Shown: positions 34,128-42,079 of the stretch, in pieces
Position numbering within the stretch: position 1 is the stretch's first letter
Layout: every line of letters begins with the position of its first letter
NCBI GenBank assembly: GCA_937941455.1
Contig: CALDHM010000002.1
Span: forward strand, 124,001 to 188,000
Direction of reading: 5' to 3'
Origin: an uncultured Pirellulaceae bacterium
GTDB taxonomy: Bacteria; Planctomycetota; Planctomycetia; Pirellulales; Pirellulaceae
Length of the DNA stretch: 64,000 nucleotides
Notes under the pieces: model-generated
What the model was told of the DNA's origin: nothing
Databases searched by the model: none
Seen by the model: only the letters and a program-made list of their open reading frames with translations
Position numbers and translations under genes: made by a program

Positions 34128-34928
34128 ATGTTGAAAAAAATCACCTTGATTGGGATCGGCGCGGTATTGGCCGGTTCCTTTTTGTTCGGCGGGCGTCTGA
34201 TCCCCTACGCGAACACAGCGTACAACAAGGCCCGCGAGGCAGCTCAGCAGAGCGTGCCGCTGGGATTCCAGATCGACGCTGCCCGCGAGCAGTTGAAAAA
34301 GATCAAGCCCGAGATCAACGACATGGTCTATCAGATCGCGAAGGAACGGGCGGAGATCAAGCGGCTGGAACGCGAGGTCGCTCGGCAAAATGAGCTGCTG
34401 GCCAAGCAACAGTCCGAAATCCTGAGCTTGCGGGCCCATCTCAACACGGGCGAGGAAGTCTATGTCGCGACCAACGGCAAGGCCTACTCCAATGCCAAGG
34501 TGGAAGAGGATTTGCGGCATCGCTTCAGCATCTTCCAGACCGCCAAGCAAACCGTCGAGAAATCGCAACAAGTCCTGGAGCTGCGGCAGAAGTCCCTCGA
34601 CAATGCCATGGTCAAACTGGAACAAGCCCAAGCGGCTCAACGAGAATTGGAAGTCCAAATCGAAAATCTGATGGCTCGCCAACGGATGGTCGACGTGGCC
34701 AAATCGGCCAGCACGCTGAACTTCAGCGACAGCCAGCTGGCTCGCACTCAGAAGATGATCGACGAGATCAGCAACCGCATCGACGCCGAAGAGGAAATGC
34801 TGGAACTGGCTCCAAAATACCTTGGCGAGATCCCGGTCAGCCCCTCGACGAAAGGCTCCGAAGATATCGTGCGAGAAATCGATGAGTACTTCGGCGCATC
34901 AGCCTCGGACTCGGTCGTAAAAAAGTAA
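34128..34928 (+). CDS. membrane-anchored coiled-coil protein
   Basis: 266 residues from the ATG at 34128 with GGGAG 8 nt upstream. One N-terminal membrane helix or uncleaved signal (ITLIGIGAVLAGSFLFGG) is followed by long heptad-rich helices: about 45-105 (REQLKKIKPEINDMVYQIAK and on) and 135-225. No catalytic motif. I recognise it only as a type of planctomycete coiled-coil protein of unknown function, probably periplasmic. It is divergent from the DUF11 gene and closed by a strong terminator. Confidence 0.75.
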   Translation: MLKKITLIGIGAVLAGSFLFGGRLIPYANTAYNKAREAAQQSVPLGFQIDAAREQLKKIKPEINDMVYQIAKERAEIKRLEREVARQNELLAKQQSEILSLRAHLNTGEEVYVATNGKAYSNAKVEEDLRHRFSIFQTAKQTVEKSQQVLELRQKSLDNAMVKLEQAQAAQRELEVQIENLMARQRMVDVAKSASTLNFSDSQLARTQKMIDEISNRIDAEEEMLELAPKYLGEIPVSPSTKGSEDIVREIDEYFGASASDSVVKK

Positions 34929-35009
34929 TGGCTGGTCGATCGTTTTAACAATCTCGACTTGGTTGCTTCGCGATTGCCGCCAATGCCCGAGCGGCGATTG
35001 ATTTGAACT

Positions 35010-35055
35010 CGGGGGCTCGAAACGTTTGTTTCGGGTCCCCGTTTTTGTTTTTTGG
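35010..35055 (+). terminator. rho-independent terminator before the his operon
   Basis: Two 14-nt arms (35010-35023 and 35028-35041) pair fully, with two G-U pairs and a 4-nt loop, followed by TTTTTGTTTTTT. It ends the coiled-coil gene and isolates the his operon from upstream transcription. Confidence 0.92.
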
Positions 35056-35064
35056 GTTTGCGGG

Positions 35065-35093
35065 TTGACAAAATGGCTGTCGCCACTCACACT
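35065..35093 (+). promoter_or_regulatory. promoter-like element of the his operon
   Basis: A perfect TTGACA (35065-35070) is followed after 17 nt by CACACT (35088-35093), which keeps the A at position 2 and T at position 6 of a -10 box. Transcription would start around 35100, at or just before the leader-peptide ATG (35101). Confidence 0.6.
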
Positions 35094-35100
35094 AAGTCGT

Positions 35101-35163
35101 ATGCAAACGATCCACGTTCATCGCCATCACCATCATTCGTTACCGAGCGTTGCTGCGGCGTGA
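35101..35163 (+). CDS. hisL: his operon leader peptide
   Basis: A 20-codon ORF, M-Q-T-I-H-V-H-R-H-H-H-H-S-L-P-S-V-A-A-A, with six His codons, four of them consecutive at 35125-35136. This is the hallmark of a histidine-sensing leader peptide. No Shine-Dalgarno sequence precedes the ATG; together with the promoter-like element this suggests a leaderless start. It lies just upstream of an alternative stem-loop system and hisG. A ribosome stalled on the His codons would leave 35149-35161 free to pair with 35191-35201. Confidence 0.88.
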   Translation: MQTIHVHRHHHHSLPSVAAA

Positions 35164-35201
35164 TATAGTTTGCCCATAAGAAACTGTCCGACGCCAGCAA
35201 C
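35149..35201 (+). promoter_or_regulatory. his attenuator, antiterminator pairing
   Basis: 35149-35155 (GTTGCTG) pairs with 35195-35201 (CAGCAAC) and 35158-35161 (GCGT) pairs with 35191-35194 (ACGC): 11 base pairs with a 2-nt bulge. The right arm is the left arm of the terminator stem, so the two structures exclude each other. A weaker upstream pairing (GCAAACG 35103-35109 with CGTTGC 35148-35153) could act as the 1:2 structure. Confidence 0.8.
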
Positions 35202-35216
35202 CGCTGGCGTTTTTTT
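35191..35216 (+). terminator. his attenuator terminator hairpin
   Basis: ACGCCAGC (35191-35198) and GCTGGCGT (35203-35210) form a perfect 8-bp stem with loop AACC, followed by seven T. It lies 28 nt behind the leader-peptide stop and 43 nt before hisG. Confidence 0.9.
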
Positions 35217-35259
35217 ATTGCCAGCCAGGCTGCTGCGTCATTGCCCACAGGAACTCGCA

Positions 35260-36177
35260 ATGACCAACATCTCAGCGAATACGTCGCCGCCAGCGGAAGC
35301 GCCCGCGCGGGATCGGCAGGTGGCTCCCCTGCGGTTAGGGCTGCCCAAGGGCCGGATGGCCAACGAAGTCAATCAGTTACTGGCGGACGCGGGGATTCGC
35401 CCCCAAATATCCTCTCGCGACTATCGTCCGGAATTGTCGCTGGGTGGCCTCGAGGTCAAGCTGCTGAAGCCGCAAGCGATCGTCACCATGCTGGCCGTTG
35501 GCTCGCGCGATATTGGCTTTGCGGGGGCCGATTGGGTGGCCGAGCTGGACGCTCCCCTGATCGAGTTGCTCGACACGGGGCTCGATCCTGTCCGCATCGT
35601 GGCCGCGGCGCCGGCCGCGTCCCTGCGCGACCCCGATTTTTGGAACCGTCCGTTGCTCGTGGCTTCCGAACTCGAGTCGTTGACCCTCCGTTGGATCCGT
35701 CAGCGCGGGCTACTGGCAAAATTCGTGCGGTCGTATGGTTCGACGGAAGTCTATCCCCCTGAGGATGCCGACTGTATCGTCGATGTTGTGGCCACGGGAG
35801 CAACGTTGAAGGCCAACGGTCTCGAGGTGACCGACGTGATCATGCAGTCCTCGACTCGCCTGTACGCCTCGCCGATCACGATGGAGCGACCGGACCAGCG
35901 AAGGCGAGTCGAGGAGTTCGTGCTTTTGCTCAAGTCGGTGCTCGAGGCACGCCTGCGAGTGATGGTCGAGGTCAATGTCACAGCGGATGTGCTGGAGCGG
36001 GTCGTGAAGGTGCTCCCCTGCATGCGCGAGCCGACGATCGCGACGCTCCACGGCGATCGCGGCTACGCCATCAAGGTGGCGGCTCCCAAGAAAGACCTGC
36101 CGACGCTCCTGACGCAGATCAAGGCGCTCGGCGGGACCGATATCGTGGTGAGCCCGATTTCTCAAATCGTCCCTTAA
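35260..36177 (+). CDS. hisG: ATP phosphoribosyltransferase, long form
   Basis: 305 residues from the ATG at 35260, preceded by CACAGGAAC. First enzyme of histidine synthesis: ATP plus PRPP to phosphoribosyl-ATP. Core motifs include LRLGLPKGRMANEVNQLL, DIGFAGADWVAEL and DCIVDVVATGATLKANGL, the PRPP-binding loop region. The C-terminal part (about 225-305, MVEVNVTADVLERVVKVLPC, ending DIVVSPISQIV) is the ACT-like regulatory domain of the long HisG form, so feedback inhibition by histidine is expected and no HisZ is needed. First structural gene after the attenuator. Confidence 0.95.
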   Translation: MTNISANTSPPAEAPARDRQVAPLRLGLPKGRMANEVNQLLADAGIRPQISSRDYRPELSLGGLEVKLLKPQAIVTMLAVGSRDIGFAGADWVAELDAPLIELLDTGLDPVRIVAAAPAASLRDPDFWNRPLLVASELESLTLRWIRQRGLLAKFVRSYGSTEVYPPEDADCIVDVVATGATLKANGLEVTDVIMQSSTRLYASPITMERPDQRRRVEEFVLLLKSVLEARLRVMVEVNVTADVLERVVKVLPCMREPTIATLHGDRGYAIKVAAPKKDLPTLLTQIKALGGTDIVVSPISQIVP

Positions 36178-36196: not shown

Positions 36197-37309
36197 ATGT
36201 CCGAGACCATGCGACGCCAACAATCGCCGATCGGCGGCCTGCCAGCCCCCAGCCGCCGCGTGGCGGAGGGAGCCGCCTATCGGCCGCCGAAAAGTGCCGT
36301 GCCGATCCGACTGCAACTCGACCGCAACGAGGGGAAGCCCCCCCCGGAATGGAACCATTGGGCAGCCGCCGCTGCCGACGAAGCGTTGTTGCGGCGGTAT
36401 CCGGTTTCAACCGAGTTGGCGGCGAGGCTGGCTCAGCGGCACGGCGTGTCGCCGCAGCAAGTGCTGGTGACTTCCGGCGGGGATGAATCTTTGCAGCGGA
36501 TTTGCCTGGCGCTCCTCGACGCCGGTGCGCAGTTGCTGCTCCCCAGTCCCACGTTCGAGATGATCGCCAAGTACGCCGCGCTGGCTGGTGCCGAGATTGT
36601 GGAGATCCCCTGGGGCCCGCAGGGCTACCCGCTCGAGGATATTCTCGACCGATTGACCCCGCAAACGCGGTTAATCGCCGTGGTTTCCCCTAACAACCCC
36701 ACGGGTGCCACCGTCGGTGCCGCCGAATTTCGGCGATTGGTCGAGGCGGTGCCGCACGTTTGGGTTTTGGTCGATGCGGCTTATGCTGAATTCGCCGATG
36801 AGGATTTGACGGGCATCGCCCTGCAGTATCCCAATACGATCGTGGTGCGAACGTTTTCGAAGGCTTGGGGCCTGGCCGGTTTGCGCGTCGGTTACTCACT
36901 GGCGCAGTCAACCACGATCGAATTTCTGCGCCGCGCTGGGGGGCCGTATCCGGTGGCCACAGTTGCGCATTCGATCGTTTGCAGCGCGCTGGCCCAGTAT
37001 CCAACGGCCGATCTGCCGTATGTTCGCCGCGCGATCGAAGAGCGAAGTGCCCTGACCGCGCTGTTGCGTCGGTTCGGACTGCGCGTTGAGGAATCGTCGG
37101 GGAACTTCGTCTACCTCCGCACGCCTGATGCAGAAAGGATTTACTGCGAGTTGCAGCAGCGAGGCATCGCCGTGCGCTGGTTTCCGGTTGATCGCGGTGG
37201 AGTCGCGGCACTGCGGATTTCGTGCCCCGGTGCTGCGGAAGAGTTCGTCGAATTGTGTTCCGCGCTGGAAGCGATTTTACTATCGCTGATCGCCGGCGGA
37301 TCGCGATGA
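36197..37309 (+). CDS. hisC: histidinol-phosphate aminotransferase
   Basis: 370 residues. A PLP-dependent class I/II aminotransferase converting imidazole-acetol phosphate to histidinol phosphate. RLQLDRNEGKPPPEWNHW is the substrate-side N-terminus; VSPNNPTGATV (about 159-169) and VRTFSKAWGLAGLRVGY (about 216-232) hold the Asn and the PLP-binding Lys. The first 30 residues are basic and unconserved. It starts 19 nt behind hisG. Confidence 0.94.
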   Translation: MSETMRRQQSPIGGLPAPSRRVAEGAAYRPPKSAVPIRLQLDRNEGKPPPEWNHWAAAAADEALLRRYPVSTELAARLAQRHGVSPQQVLVTSGGDESLQRICLALLDAGAQLLLPSPTFEMIAKYAALAGAEIVEIPWGPQGYPLEDILDRLTPQTRLIAVVSPNNPTGATVGAAEFRRLVEAVPHVWVLVDAAYAEFADEDLTGIALQYPNTIVVRTFSKAWGLAGLRVGYSLAQSTTIEFLRRAGGPYPVATVAHSIVCSALAQYPTADLPYVRRAIEERSALTALLRRFGLRVEESSGNFVYLRTPDAERIYCELQQRGIAVRWFPVDRGGVAALRISCPGAAEEFVELCSALEAILLSLIAGGSR

Positions 37310-37388: not shown

Positions 37389-37979
37389 ATGAATTGCTCA
37401 CGAATCGCCGAAGTCATAAGAAAGACATCCGAAACCGAGATCTGCCTGACTTTGGACTTGGACGGCAGCGGCTGGGCCCGCGTCGAAACCGGAATCGGTA
37501 TGTTCGATCATTTGTTGACCGCATTGGCCCGACATTCTCGCTTCGATTTGACGCTCACTTGTCGCGGCGATTTGCAGGTGGACGATCACCACACGGTCGA
37601 GGACTGCGCCCTGGCGATCGGTGCGGCGATCGATCAAGCGTTGGGGAATCGCCAAGGGGTAACTCGCTTCGCAACCGGTTTCGCGCCCCTGGACGAGGCT
37701 CTGGTCCGCAGTGTGATCGATCTTTCGGGTCGGGGGGGGGCCTGGGTAAACCTGCCAATCCCTGTCGAGCGGATCGGTCTGTTGAGCAGCGAAAACGTGC
37801 CCCACTTCTTTCGATCGCTGGCAACCGCAGCGCGGCTGACCCTGCATCAAGATTTAGTACGCGGTGAGAATGGTCATCACATTGCCGAAGCGGCCTTCAA
37901 ATCGTTCGCCTTGGCGATTCGCAATGCGACCCGGCCGACGAATTTCGGCGACATTCCCAGTACCAAGGGCACATTATGA
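37389..37979 (+). CDS. hisB: imidazoleglycerol-phosphate dehydratase
   Basis: 196 residues, the usual length of the monofunctional enzyme; there is no fused phosphatase domain as in E. coli HisB. Metal-binding HHxxE motifs are present twice: DDHHTVEDCALAIG (about 61-74) and GENGHHIAEAAFKSFA (about 162-177). A 9-nt G tract (37732-37740) encodes Arg-Gly-Gly in SGRGGAWVNL, where most HisB have SGRP. Its ATGA stop overlaps the hisH start, so translation is coupled. It follows hisC by 79 nt. Confidence 0.95.
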   Translation: MNCSRIAEVIRKTSETEICLTLDLDGSGWARVETGIGMFDHLLTALARHSRFDLTLTCRGDLQVDDHHTVEDCALAIGAAIDQALGNRQGVTRFATGFAPLDEALVRSVIDLSGRGGAWVNLPIPVERIGLLSSENVPHFFRSLATAARLTLHQDLVRGENGHHIAEAAFKSFALAIRNATRPTNFGDIPSTKGTL

Positions 37980-38590
37980 CGAACGGCAGCGACAACTTGG
38001 TAGCGGTGGTCGCCACGGGAGTGGCTAACGTCGCGTCGGTGATGGCCGCCCTGCGACGTCTCGGGAGAGAGCCGTATCCGGTGTCGTCGGCCAGCGAAGT
38101 CATGGCGGCACAGCGGTTGGTCCTGCCCGGAGTCGGCGCCTTTGCCGCGGCGATGCAACGTCTGATGGAGTTGGGGTTGGTCGAGCCCCTGCGCGAACGC
38201 ATCGCCGCCGAGCGGCCGACGTTAGCGATTTGCCTCGGCTTGCAACTTTTGGCCGGCGGTAGTGACGAAAACCCCGGCGTTCGCGGACTGGACATTGTCG
38301 ATGGACAAGTCGTCCCGTTGCCGGCCCGGCGACGGCCGCAGCTGGGCTGGAACCGCGTGGCCCCGGGAGCCGAATCGCGGTACATCAAGGAGGGTTACGC
38401 TTATTATGCTAACTCGTTTTGTCTGACCGCGGCTCCTGCCGGTTGGGTAGCGAGTTGGAGCCACTGCGACGATCGCTTCGTTGCGGCCATCGAGCGAGGG
38501 CCGGTGCTGGCCTGCCAATTCCACCCGGAGTTGTCGGGGGCGTGGGGCCGCGAGTGTTTGGCGAGATGGTGGGAGGCGACCGGATGTTGA
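37976..38590 (+). CDS. hisH: imidazole glycerol phosphate synthase subunit HisH
   Basis: 204 residues, the class I glutaminase that passes ammonia to HisF. AICLGLQLLAGGSDE (about 82-96) carries the catalytic cysteine and ACQFHPELSG (about 181-190) the His and Glu of the triad. GVANVASVMAALRRLG is the family N-terminus. It overlaps hisB by 4 nt and hisF by 7 nt. Confidence 0.95.
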   Translation: MTNGSDNLVAVVATGVANVASVMAALRRLGREPYPVSSASEVMAAQRLVLPGVGAFAAAMQRLMELGLVEPLRERIAAERPTLAICLGLQLLAGGSDENPGVRGLDIVDGQVVPLPARRRPQLGWNRVAPGAESRYIKEGYAYYANSFCLTAAPAGWVASWSHCDDRFVAAIERGPVLACQFHPELSGAWGRECLARWWEATGC

Positions 38591-39339
38591 CGACACGCAT
38601 CATTCCCTGCCTCGATTGCCGCGATGGCCGAGTGGTGAAGGGGATTCAATTCGGCAACTTGCGCGACGTGGGATCCCCTGCGGAGCAAGCCGCCTTGTAC
38701 GAAAGCCAAGGCGCCGACGAAATCGTGCTGCTGGACGTGATCGCGACAGTAGCGGGCCAAGCGGCCCAGGCGGAAACGATCCGCGCTGTGCGGCAGGCTC
38801 TTTCGATTCCGCTGACCGTGGGGGGCGGCGTGCGATCGATCGCCGATGCCCGGCGTTTGCTCGATTGCGGAGCCGACAAGGTGTCGGTGAATACAGCCGC
38901 CGTGCAGAACCCCGATTTGATCGATCAGTTGGCCGACCAGTTCGGTCGCCAGTGCATCGTCTTGGCGGTCGATGCAGCCGCCTGCACAGGGGGGGGCTGG
39001 CACGTCGTCACGCACTCCGGGCGGCAACCGACGACCTGGGAAGTAGCCGACTGGTGCCAAGTGGGGGAGCAACGCGGAGCGGGGGAGATTCTGCTGACCA
39101 GTTGGGATCGGGACGGCACGCGCAGCGGTTATTGCTTGGACTTGCTACGGCACGTGCGGAACGGTCTGGCGATTCCGCTGATCGCATCGGGGGGGGCCAA
39201 CGGTCCGGAGCATTTGTGGGAAGCGATCGAGGCCGGTGCCGACGCGGTACTTGCCGCCAGCATTTTTCATTCAGGAGATTTTCGGGTGGACGAAGTCAAA
39301 CGTTTTTTGAGTGCTCGCGGTGTCGAGGTGCGGCGATGA
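38584..39339 (+). CDS. hisF: imidazole glycerol phosphate synthase subunit HisF
   Basis: 251 residues. The cyclase TIM barrel makes imidazole glycerol phosphate and AICAR from PRFAR and ammonia. Asp11 in RIIPCLDCRDG and the Asp of IVLAVDAAACTGGGW (the Asp130 position) are the catalytic acids; LTVGGGVRSI and LIASGGANGPEHL bind the phosphates. Two 8-nt G tracts (38989-38996, 39189-39196) encode Gly pairs. The ATG at 38584 overlaps the hisH stop (ATGTTGA). Its last 14 codons are duplicated just downstream. Confidence 0.95.
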   Translation: MLTTRIIPCLDCRDGRVVKGIQFGNLRDVGSPAEQAALYESQGADEIVLLDVIATVAGQAAQAETIRAVRQALSIPLTVGGGVRSIADARRLLDCGADKVSVNTAAVQNPDLIDQLADQFGRQCIVLAVDAAACTGGGWHVVTHSGRQPTTWEVADWCQVGEQRGAGEILLTSWDRDGTRSGYCLDLLRHVRNGLAIPLIASGGANGPEHLWEAIEAGADAVLAASIFHSGDFRVDEVKRFLSARGVEVRR

Positions 39340-39416
39340 TAGTGCTTTTGAGCAATTTCACTGTGCATCAGGCAAAACGTTTTTTGAGTGCCCGCGGTTC
39401 CGAGGTGCGACGATGA
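39336..39416 (+). CDS. 26-codon mini-ORF from a duplicated hisF tail
   Basis: ATG at 39336 overlaps the hisF stop and TGA at 39414-39416 overlaps the hisA start (ATGA at both ends). The product begins MIVLL, like HisA (MIVPS), and ends AKRFLSARGSEVRR, like the HisF end VKRFLSARGVEVRR. It is most simply a remnant of a local duplication. It may serve to pass ribosomes from hisF to hisA; a function as a peptide is unlikely. Confidence 0.55.
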   Translation: MIVLLSNFTVHQAKRFLSARGSEVRR

Positions 39417-40687
39417 TTGTCCCGTCGATCGATATCATGAACGGCCGCACGGTGCAGCTCGTCGGTGGCCGCGACTTTGAATTGGACGCTGGGGATCCGC
39501 TGGCGTGGGCCGATCGCTTCGGGGTGGTCGGCGAAGTCGCGGTGGTCGACTTGGATGCTGCCCTCGGGCGGGGTTCCAACCGGGAGATCATCCAGCAGGT
39601 TTGCCAGCGTTGTCGCTGCCGCGTGGGGGGAGGGATTCGGTCGGTCGAGGCAGCCATCGCCTGGTTGGACGCCGGCGCCGAATCGGTCGTGTTGGGGACT
39701 GCGGCGCGACCTGAGATATTGCGGGACCTGCCTCGCGAGCGCGTCATCGCTGCGCTCGATTCGGTCAATGACGAAGTGGTTGTCGAGGGATGGCAACGAG
39801 GGACGGGAGTCAATGTGCTGGAGCGGATCGCCGAATTAAAGCCGTATGTGCACGGTTTTCTGGTGACCTTCGTGGAGCGCGAGGGACGTTTGGGAGGGAC
39901 ACGGCTCGACGCGGCCAGGGAAATCGCCAAGGCTGCAGCCGGAACGCGCGTCACGATCGCAGGTGGCGTTACGACGACTGCGGAAGTTGCCGAACTGGAC
40001 CGGATGGGTTGCGATGCCCAGGTTGGGATGGCGCTCTACAAGGGATTGCTGCCGCTGGCGGAGGCCTTCGCGGCCCCCTTGATCAGCGATCGTCCGGATG
40101 GACTGTGGCCGACCGTGGTGGTCGATGAACACGATGTCGCCTTGGGCCTAGTCTATTCCAATTTGGAAAGCCTGCGGCAATCGCTCGCGACTCGGCGTGG
40201 CGTCTACTACTCGCGCAGTCGGCAGGGACTTTGGACGAAGGGGGAAACGTCGGGAGCGACACAACAGTTGCTCGAGGTTTCGGCCGATTGCGATCGCGAT
40301 GCGTTGCGATTTCGTGTGCGGCAAGCCGGAGCGGGCTTCTGCCATTTGGACACGCGATCCTGTTGGGGGGGGGCGGGAATCGTGCCGAGTCTCGCCCGTC
40401 GGCTCCGCAGCTATCGAGACAACGCACCCAGTGGGTCCTACACGCAACGGCTGCTACGCGATCCCGAGTTGCTGCGTCAAAAGCTGTTGGAAGAAGCCCG
40501 CGAACTTGCGGCGGCCGCGACCGCCGAGGAAGTCGTTCACGAGGCGGCCGATGTCCTCTACTTCGTCCTGGCGAAACTCGCCGCCGAGGATCTGGCTTGG
40601 GAGTCGCTCGAAACCGTCTTGGACGCGCGGCGGAAGCGCGTGTCGCGGCGGCCGGGAGATGCCAAACCGAACTCAGCGAACATTTAG
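39413..40687 (+). CDS. trifunctional HisA-HisI-HisE fusion protein
   Basis: 424 residues. Residues 1-225 are the ProFAR isomerase HisA: Asp7 in VPSIDIMNG, RVGGGIRSVEA, Asp116 in IAALDSVND and Thr152 in VTFVEREG match the catalytic Asp8, Asp127 and Thr164 of Thermotoga HisA. Residues 226-322 are phosphoribosyl-AMP cyclohydrolase HisI: YYSRSRQGLWTKGETSG, the DCDRD acid cluster and CHLDTRSCW. Residues about 325-415 are phosphoribosyl-ATP pyrophosphohydrolase HisE: EEAREL and HEAADVLYFVL. One chain would carry steps 2, 3 and 4. HisI-HisE fusions are common; adding HisA in front is unusual to my knowledge. ATG 39413 matches the HisA start. Confidence 0.92.
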   Translation: MIVPSIDIMNGRTVQLVGGRDFELDAGDPLAWADRFGVVGEVAVVDLDAALGRGSNREIIQQVCQRCRCRVGGGIRSVEAAIAWLDAGAESVVLGTAARPEILRDLPRERVIAALDSVNDEVVVEGWQRGTGVNVLERIAELKPYVHGFLVTFVEREGRLGGTRLDAAREIAKAAAGTRVTIAGGVTTTAEVAELDRMGCDAQVGMALYKGLLPLAEAFAAPLISDRPDGLWPTVVVDEHDVALGLVYSNLESLRQSLATRRGVYYSRSRQGLWTKGETSGATQQLLEVSADCDRDALRFRVRQAGAGFCHLDTRSCWGGAGIVPSLARRLRSYRDNAPSGSYTQRLLRDPELLRQKLLEEARELAAAATAEEVVHEAADVLYFVLAKLAAEDLAWESLETVLDARRKRVSRRPGDAKPNSANI

Positions 40688-40825: not shown

Positions 40826-42079
40826 ATGCTGAAGCGCATCACCATCGATGAACTGGAATCGACATTGCGGCCGGCCGTCGATACGGAAACGCTGCTCGTC
40901 GCCCGGCGACTGTTGGAAGAGATCGCGCGGGATGGCACTTCAGGGCTGATCGCCGCCATCGAAAAGTTCGAAAATCGGCGTGGCGATCGGTTGACTTTGG
41001 GACCGGCAGAATTCGCTGAGGCTTATCAAGTCGTTCCCCGCGCGGAACGAGAGTTGCTGGAACGGGTCGCAGGAAGAATCGCGCGCTTTGCGGAGGCCCA
41101 AAAGTTGAGCCTCGGTTCGGTATCGCTCCCGATCGACGGAGGGGCGGCAGGACACGACTGGTTTCCGCTGCAGAGTGCAGGTTGCTACGTCCCCGGCGGC
41201 CGCTTTCCGCTGGTTTCGAGTTTATTAATGACGGCCGTGACGGCGCGAGTGGCTGGCGTCGAGCAGGTCTGGGTGGCTTCGCCCGTGGCCTCGCCGCTGA
41301 TGCTGGCCGCCGCGGCTGTGGCGAAGGCCGATGGATTTCTGTGGTGCGGCGGCGTGCAGGCGATCGCGGCGCTGGCGTACGGGATCGGAGGAGTTCCCCG
41401 TTGCGATGCGATTGTCGGCCCCGGAAATCGGTGGGTGACCGCCGCGAAGTTCTTGGTTTCCGATCGACTGCGGATCGACATGCTGGCCGGCCCCTCGGAA
41501 TTGCTCGTGTTGGCGGACGGGACGGCACGCCCGGAGGTGATTGCTGCCGACTTGCTCGCGCAGGCCGAGCATGATGTCGACGCGCGGCCGATGCTGATCA
41601 CCGATTCAGCGGATCTCGCCGCGGCTGTCGATGCCGAATTGCGACGGCAAACGGAACAACTAGCCACTCGCGAAAATTGTCAGGCAGCTCTGAACAATGG
41701 ATTCACCATGATCGTGCGCACCTGGGAGGAAGCGGTGGTGGCCTGCCAGCGCATCGCGCCGGAACATCTAGAGGTCCAGGTCGCGGAGCCCGCGGGCTTG
41801 GCGCCACGTTTGACCAAATGTGGGTGCTTGTTTATTGGGGGGAACTCCGCCGAGGCGCTTGGGGACTACGGCGCGGGGCCGAACCACGTTTTGCCCACCG
41901 GAGGGACCGCCCGCTTCGCCTCGGGCTTGGCGGTAGAAACGCTGATGCGTCGGCAGACTTGGCTGCGGATCGACGATGTCGAGTCCGCTCAAGGGACGGT
42001 CGCCGACGCGTTGGCGATGGCCGAACTGGAGGGCTTGCCGGGGCATGCGGCGAGCGCACGATTGCGCGTGAGATCCTAA
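40826..42079 (+). CDS. hisD: histidinol dehydrogenase
   Basis: 417 residues from the ATG at 40826, 8 nt behind AAGGA. It oxidises histidinol to histidine in two NAD-dependent steps. FPLVSSLLMTAVTARVAGV, GPGNRWVTAAKFLV (about 201-214) and MLAGPSELLVLAD are nucleotide and metal-site blocks; CQRIAPEHLEVQV (about 311-323) holds the catalytic Glu-His pair. Last his gene of the operon; a dedicated histidinol-phosphatase gene is absent from the window. Confidence 0.95.
   Translation: MLKRITIDELESTLRPAVDTETLLVARRLLEEIARDGTSGLIAAIEKFENRRGDRLTLGPAEFAEAYQVVPRAERELLERVAGRIARFAEAQKLSLGSVSLPIDGGAAGHDWFPLQSAGCYVPGGRFPLVSSLLMTAVTARVAGVEQVWVASPVASPLMLAAAAVAKADGFLWCGGVQAIAALAYGIGGVPRCDAIVGPGNRWVTAAKFLVSDRLRIDMLAGPSELLVLADGTARPEVIAADLLAQAEHDVDARPMLITDSADLAAAVDAELRRQTEQLATRENCQAALNNGFTMIVRTWEEAVVACQRIAPEHLEVQVAEPAGLAPRLTKCGCLFIGGNSAEALGDYGAGPNHVLPTGGTARFASGLAVETLMRRQTWLRIDDVESAQGTVADALAMAELEGLPGHAASARLRVRS

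Follow-up and report, generated by a model that had tools for sequence, protein, structure and literature searches.

A predicted ribosome-mediated histidine attenuator with a putatively leaderless leader ORF in a Pirellulaceae bacterium and other phyla

We analysed a 64,000-nt stretch of DNA from an uncultured Pirellulaceae bacterium (hereafter, the window), in which the his operon is preceded by a short His-rich ORF, a terminator hairpin and an alternative pairing that would preclude the hairpin. Sequence comparison makes it highly likely that this region attenuates transcription of the his operon in a ribosome-mediated manner, with a leader ORF that is itself leaderless, and its mechanism is very probably that of the enterobacterial his attenuator. 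A first-pass annotation had proposed a complete histidine attenuator at this locus. That reading is now supported by the recurrence of the His-rich ORF, the terminator, the antiterminator and their geometry across many loci, and by compensatory changes in both structures.

The leader and its alternative structures

The features of the locus are as follows.
35010–35051, + strand: terminator-like site behind the upstream gene (14-pair stem at 35010–35041, T-rich tail)
35065–35070, + strand: −35 hexamer TTGACA, 6 of 6; could open a new transcription unit
35088–35093, + strand: −10-like hexamer CACACT, a weak one with 3 of 6 matches, separated from the −35 by a 17-nt spacer and with 7 nt between its end and the ATG
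35101–35163, + strand: leader ORF of 20 codons with six His, predicted to be leaderless
35125–35136, + strand: run of four His codons, with two more at 35113–35115 and 35119–35121
35149–35161, + strand: left arm of the antiterminator, extending into the leader stop codon
35165–35187, + strand: hairpin of 7 pairs inside the antiterminator, by folding
35190–35216, + strand: putative attenuator (9-pair stem, AACC loop, seven T), of which 35191–35201 doubles as the antiterminator's right arm
35260–36177, + strand: hisG, the first gene under the proposed control, with AGGA upstream at 35249–35252
36197–37309, + strand: hisC; best model TIGR01141, under its curated cut-off
37389–37979, + strand: hisB
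37976–38590, + strand: hisH
38584–39339, + strand: hisF
39413–40687, + strand: hisA-hisI-hisE fusion (424-aa ORF; PF00977, PF01502, PF01503)
40826–42079, + strand: hisD

The leader ORF can be read directly: it opens with the ATG at 35101, encodes the peptide MQTIHVHRHHHHSLPSVAAA and closes with the TGA at 35161–35163, exactly as the 20-codon ORF with six His codons had been described. The terminator, proposed as an 8-bp stem and seven T at 35191–35216, was also found. Its stem pairs 35191–35198 with 35203–35210 (8 pairs, or 9 when G35190–U35211 is counted) around the AACC loop, and the seven T at 35210–35216 close it. The alternative pairing that had been claimed, of GTTGCTGCGGCGT (35149–35161) with ACGCCAGCAAC (35191–35201), is present and is the minimum-energy fold of 35146–35216.

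Folding of partial transcripts yielded all three expected states. A free 3′ half (35176–35216), the part that a ribosome on the stop codon would leave exposed, folds into the terminator (−16.2 kcal/mol, z −5.0 relative to shuffles). RNA from 35146 onwards would be exposed by a ribosome stalled on the His run, and 35146–35204 folds into the antiterminator (−22.1 kcal/mol, z −3.2). The antiterminator fold of 35146–35216, a segment in which the terminator is able to compete, has an energy of −24.2 kcal/mol (z −2.0) and an ensemble frequency of 0.13. With 35095–35216 entirely free, the terminator forms together with a 5′ hairpin that holds the left arm (−36 kcal/mol, z −2.5).

The leader does precede a his operon, as the first-pass annotation had it: hisG at 35260 opens a compact operon with the gene order hisG-hisC-hisB-hisH-hisF-hisAIE-hisD, and the terminator-like site at 35010–35051 sets the upstream gene apart from the his leader. 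The locus has two hallmarks of a hisL-type system, namely a His-rich leader ORF upstream of a biosynthetic operon and, by sequence and folding, a predicted intrinsic terminator between the leader and the first gene. Within the operon, a 63-nt direct repeat (39298–39437; 81% identical, spacing 77) corresponds to the hisF 3′ end duplicated before hisA. The hisA and hisIE matches of the relative G002 (L212) adjoin in the same frame.

We propose the following mechanism, in which ribosome footprint reasoning gives the bases that a stalled ribosome would cover. Polymerase having begun at or near the ATG, a ribosome would load at the extreme 5′ end of the message. When charged tRNA-His is scarce, this ribosome would stall at 35125–35136 and leave 35149–35161 unpaired; pairing of that arm with 35191–35201 would block the terminator, and the his genes would be transcribed. 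When histidine is plentiful, a ribosome at 35161–35163 would cover the left arm, and transcription would terminate at about 35210–35216. Without translation, the 5′ hairpin would mask the left arm and the terminator would form. The switch in the window probably halts transcription when histidine is plentiful.

Conservation, covariation and alternative readings

HisG matches occur in 114 of the 119 genomes of the window's family, and their kinds differ widely in similarity to the HisG of the window. The window-like kinds are A (G000, G002 and G003) and B (G001, G004, G031, G033, G070 and G102); kind D, the family's usual HisG, is ~26–32% identical to that of the window. The set of loci with window-like HisG comprises 116 (L002–L006, L008–L090 and L154–L181). 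One search contributed the best 80 of 162 loci, and the phylum sample contributed loci for 30 of 32 matches; the separate, later set from the class of genome G121 has loci for 30 of 35 matches. L007 and L153 were removed as copies of L003 and L015, kind C (L091–L112) was moved to the control, and three identical pairs (L043/L155, L071/L156 and L082/L159) stay within the 116.

A His-rich short ORF lies upstream of the window-like HisG in 76 of the 116 loci, a set drawn in part from the best 80 of 162, and the other 40 do not pass the ORF rule. Applied to the upstreams of the family's other HisG kinds, the same rule was passed at one of 62 loci (L098, with a TTG start and without a terminator), and a first version of the rule gave no His-rich leader at 22 kind-C or 40 kind-D loci. 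At least five His per eight codons were found in 57 of the 116 real upstreams versus none in ten shuffle rounds; the corresponding values were 71 versus a mean of 0.3 for four His per eight codons, and 76 versus a mean of 5.8 for the weakest threshold. On the opposite strand, the weakest, four-His and five-His thresholds were passed by 11, 1 and 0 of the 116 upstreams. Median leader length is 20 codons, with a median of 6 His. Leaving out L017, an unconvincing 39-codon GTG ORF, gives the set of 75 leaders used below, and leaving out L017, L159 and L175 gives the set of 73, with 66 ATG and 7 GTG start codons.

Conservation in close relatives had been set beforehand as a test of the attenuator reading, and 8 of the 9 loci with window-like HisG kinds in the window's family carry the His-rich leader (L088 is without one). 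In the A-kind leaders of the window's genus, little is kept apart from the His codons and the C-terminal residues that the antiterminator arm specifies. In the Spirochaetota leaders L062, L069, L070, L073 and L086, the peptide end is almost fixed (AVAMIVIP, once AVTMIVIP), and an additional inverted repeat lies 3′ of the stop codon; this fixed end and the repeat probably reflect an RNA constraint, with an effect of the peptide as the alternative.

A strong terminator with a T-run stands behind 60 of 73 leaders, versus 11–16 in five shuffle rounds; under the first rule, 13 of 76 leaders were without one. The terminator core ACGCCGGC...GCCGGCGT is found widely among the leaders.

Three tests concur on the antiterminator: shuffled left regions, swapped arms and covariation. 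Compared with shuffles, the left region pairs with the 5′ arm of the terminator at p ≤ 0.05 in 46 of 75 leaders and at p ≤ 0.01 in 25 (mean z −2.24 over the 75), and 29 miss p ≤ 0.05; these counts retain L066, L082, L083, L159, L167, L170, L171 and L176, for which a wrong hairpin was picked. L002–L004 and L087 reach p ≤ 0.05. Of the family's five B-kind leaders, four (L005, L006, L089 and L090) have weak antiterminators (p 0.10–0.55). An antiterminator that would exclude the terminator, with the position of the ribosome decisive, is predicted for the window and the A kind, and is weak in these four B-kind leaders. In 59 of 75 leaders, the left arm of the antiterminator extends into the stop codon of the leader ORF. 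A frequent form of the left arm is GGCCGGG[TGA]TGGTG opposite ACCATCGACGCCGGCC, and in the window and its A-kind relatives the antiterminator is in a shifted register. The left arm and the terminator loop co-vary, with GTTGCT/AGCAAC in L002 and GGTGCT/AGCACC in L003. When arms were swapped between leaders, own arms paired at a mean of −20.9 kcal/mol versus −18.0 kcal/mol for swapped arms (z −9.0, n = 73); the own arm ranked first of 73, alone or tied, in only 3 leaders and was among the top tenth in 26.

Covariation across relatives, which had been suggested as a check, is present in both mutually exclusive structures in A1, a set of 26 leaders with a common layout. Of 74 candidates, 14 failed the core pattern, and the 26 were picked by eye from the remaining 60; A1 favours structure because its leaders were picked for a common layout, and the shuffle and swap tests use nearly all leaders. 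In the A1 antiterminator, 80.8% of cells are paired and the covariation score is 0.200, neither of which was matched in 500 shuffles. Double changes occur at 7 of 14 pairs, a number reached by 5 of 500 shuffles, and sliding the pairing out of register leaves at most 51.4% paired. The A1 terminator is 96.5% paired, with double changes at 5 of 10 pairs (1 of 500 shuffles).

A covariance model, R1, searched over 392 genomes, had matches in 43 genomes at E ≤ 0.01. Sixteen of the 30 loci inspected are His leaders before hisG, six of which (L182–L186 and L192) sat in R1's own building alignment; the other 14 are without a His ORF or his gene, suggesting that weak R1 matches are mostly chance hairpins. 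At the gathering score, the 4227 Rfam families, any his leader family included, gave no relevant match in the window and 16 loci (a tRNA, in L005 only), and no T-box or described riboswitch family matched there. At E ≤ 10, nothing relevant was found in 34950–35300 (best match sroD, E 0.071).

We considered whether the leader could act on translation instead of transcription, with stalling altering how accessible the start of hisG is. Such control would suit the GC-rich relatives that have the hairpin with a poor T-run (30 of 75 leaders have fewer than six T in 12 bases, some of them through wrong hairpins). However, the hairpin in the window has seven T, its T-run stops 43 nt short of the hisG ATG and clear of the AGGA, and the strict-rule terminator is present in 60 of 73 leaders, so that translational control appears very unlikely. 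Even less probable is that the short ORF specifies a His-rich peptide with a function of its own, for example in metal binding, and is followed by a plain terminator. Trans-acting leader peptides do exist, as with the Sinorhizobium meliloti trpL peptide (PMC7298713), and the Spirochaetota peptides are alike along most of their length, but the A-kind leaders of the window's genus keep mainly the His codons and the arm-encoded C-terminal residues, and RNA pairing accounts for this kept end.

Finally, a His run and a terminator might stand before hisG by chance. Shuffles do give a mean of 5.8 ORFs per 116 upstreams at the weakest threshold and 11–16 terminators per 73 leaders; with recurrence over phyla and controls far under the real counts, we give coincidence almost no weight.

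Promoter spacing and the predicted start of the message

The leaderless start that forms part of the attenuator reading is predicted from promoter spacing. In 50 of 73 leaders, the start codon lies 6–10 nt beyond the end of a sigma70-like promoter, as compared with a mean of 0.14 (maximum 2) over 200 shuffle rounds and none of the 525 other ATGs that these stretches contain; both controls cover the 73-leader set. The promoter rule was looser at first (51 of 73 at 6–10 nt) and was then tightened for the controls. Of the 29 leaders contributed by the family and phylum searches, 21 have the spacing, and an SD-like motif lies ahead of 2 of the 73. Because the promoter ends 6–10 nt from the start codon, the leader message is predicted to be leaderless, and we infer that polymerase starts at the leader start codon or a few bases before it; with so close a start, the ribosome would load on the very 5′ end. 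In the window, the transcription start is predicted at 35100–35101. A stricter general promoter scan found no promoter in 34700–35500, the proposed one having a weak −10.

Fresh genomes from the class of G121 have the leader ORF at 14 of 16 new loci. The promoter spacing is present in six of these 14 leaders, including the near-copies L239 and L242; of the other eight, four have a promoter 5, 11, 19 and 19 nt away and four have none by the rule. The prediction of a leaderless start therefore stands, with less uniformity than 50 of 73 had implied. The terminator core is missing by pattern in 4 of the 14, and the swapped-arm test was not significant here (z −1.4, with a value this low in 453 of 5000 permutations; n = 15, including 5 old loci).

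Distribution, known systems and coupling

Window-like HisG (E ≤ 1e-55) is found in 32 of the 392 genomes of the phylum sample. Record labels and the HisG tree place the leaders chiefly in Planctomycetota, Myxococcota, Spirochaetota and some Pseudomonadota, with one locus each in Acidobacteriota (L036) and Armatimonadota (L081) by record label; most carriers are MAGs, whose labels are possibly wrong, and the search portion is the best 80 of 162 loci. On the HisG tree (131 rows, quick method), leader presence requires 19 changes versus 43 after label shuffling, indicating that the leader is clustered on the tree, with gains and losses. The HisG of the window groups apart from the usual kind of its family, and the operon does not look as if it had come down vertically there. 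The smallest starred set that contains the A kind also takes in L011 and L014, labelled Planctomycetota, and the next branch out (92, unstarred) takes in L008, labelled Phycisphaerae. The upstreams of L014 and L008 are identical to those of genomes from the class of G121 (L236 and L234, respectively), which is taken to be Phycisphaerae. The B kind of the window's genus falls in a separate starred set with other family members. These observations fit a joint transfer of the operon and its switch, which would be the simplest reading.

Within one genus, L002–L006 (G000–G004) have his operons with two HisG kinds, each preceded by a His leader, which suggests whole-operon replacement. Ahead of leuA and trpE in the window's genus, none of the 11 loci scanned has a short ORF that is rich in Leu or Trp and is preceded by a promoter under the rule used here (this excludes L221 and L228, where the 450 bases taken fall within the gene), so that the generality of attenuation in this genus is not supported. 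The leuA matches L223 and L226 (relatives G002 and G001) have in-frame stops, and the G001 match is in two pieces.

As predicted for the leaders described here, hisL of Escherichia coli and Salmonella combines a His-rich leader ORF, a terminator before hisG and a stall-dependent alternative pairing (PMC9413887, PMC3896937). The E. coli leader and terminator sequences differ from those of the window when compared by eye, and the same promoter scan gives none in the 100 nt upstream of the start codon of E. coli hisL. E. coli hisL has a 5′ UTR. For Bacillota His leaders (Bacillus cereus group, Eubacteriales and Erysipelotrichales), a leader, terminator and antiterminator have likewise been predicted comparatively (PMC9413887); they belong to another phylum, they are likened here by their description, and the available portion of that paper does not mention a leaderless start. 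The S. meliloti trpL leader RNA is leaderless, its 5′ end being the ATG of the leader ORF (PMC7298713), but that system concerns tryptophan in one lineage, whereas here it is histidine in several phyla.

As of 2010, according to PMC2965389, leader-peptide systems were established in Proteobacteria and Actinobacteria only, to which that paper adds bacilli; candidate his attenuators in Firmicutes were added by PMC9413887. PMC4833913 counts Planctomycetes leader genes generally and names gamma-proteobacteria and some Firmicutes as having his leaders; the present leader might be among the leader-gene pairs in its tables. Such a leader was excluded for the Corynebacterium glutamicum hisD operon (PMC3896937). 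A term search of the text of PMC8632094 found no mention of histidine, hisG or planctomycetes. In the openly licensed literature, the titles and abstract starts among the matches listed include no his attenuator for planctomycetes, Spirochaetota or Myxococcota, and to that extent the suggestion that the system is new for the phylum stands uncontradicted. The first-pass annotation had placed enterobacterial hisL logic in planctomycetes; the mechanism is supported, and the system is not limited to planctomycetes. What is known here is an attenuator mechanism of the enterobacterial his type, and no described RNA family tested matched; what is new is the predicted leaderless start, the antiterminator overlapping the stop codon across phyla, and the presence in planctomycetes.

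Leader-peptide attenuation needs a ribosome directly behind RNA polymerase. Since the message would start at or near the start codon, these leaders are a good test of whether ribosomes track polymerase closely in these bacteria. The primary paper on translation confined to non-nucleoid regions in Gemmata obscuriglobus is reportedly Gottshall 2014. Translation in that species has been described as limited to non-nucleoid regions (PMC5287468), an ordinary Gram-negative cell plan has been argued for planctomycetes (PMC5394234), and PMC8567305 treats spatial separation of processes in a planctomycete as a possibility only.

Relative to the cited sources, in the parts available, predicted His leader attenuation now extends beyond Proteobacteria, Actinobacteria (for leader peptides generally) and Firmicutes, and the promoter-spacing signature can be used to find further leaders. 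We think it fairly likely that these leaders form a his attenuator family spread over several phyla, with a message lacking a 5′ UTR, polymerase and ribosome coupled from the first bases, and a switch that moves horizontally with its operon, and that at least these planctomycetes, of Pirellulaceae and Phycisphaerae type, couple transcription and translation. If true, such coupling would contrast with the spatial separation proposed for Gemmata; the implication concerns other planctomycetes, not Gemmata itself. The leaderless attenuator predicted in those planctomycetes would make coupling directly testable by a single reporter.
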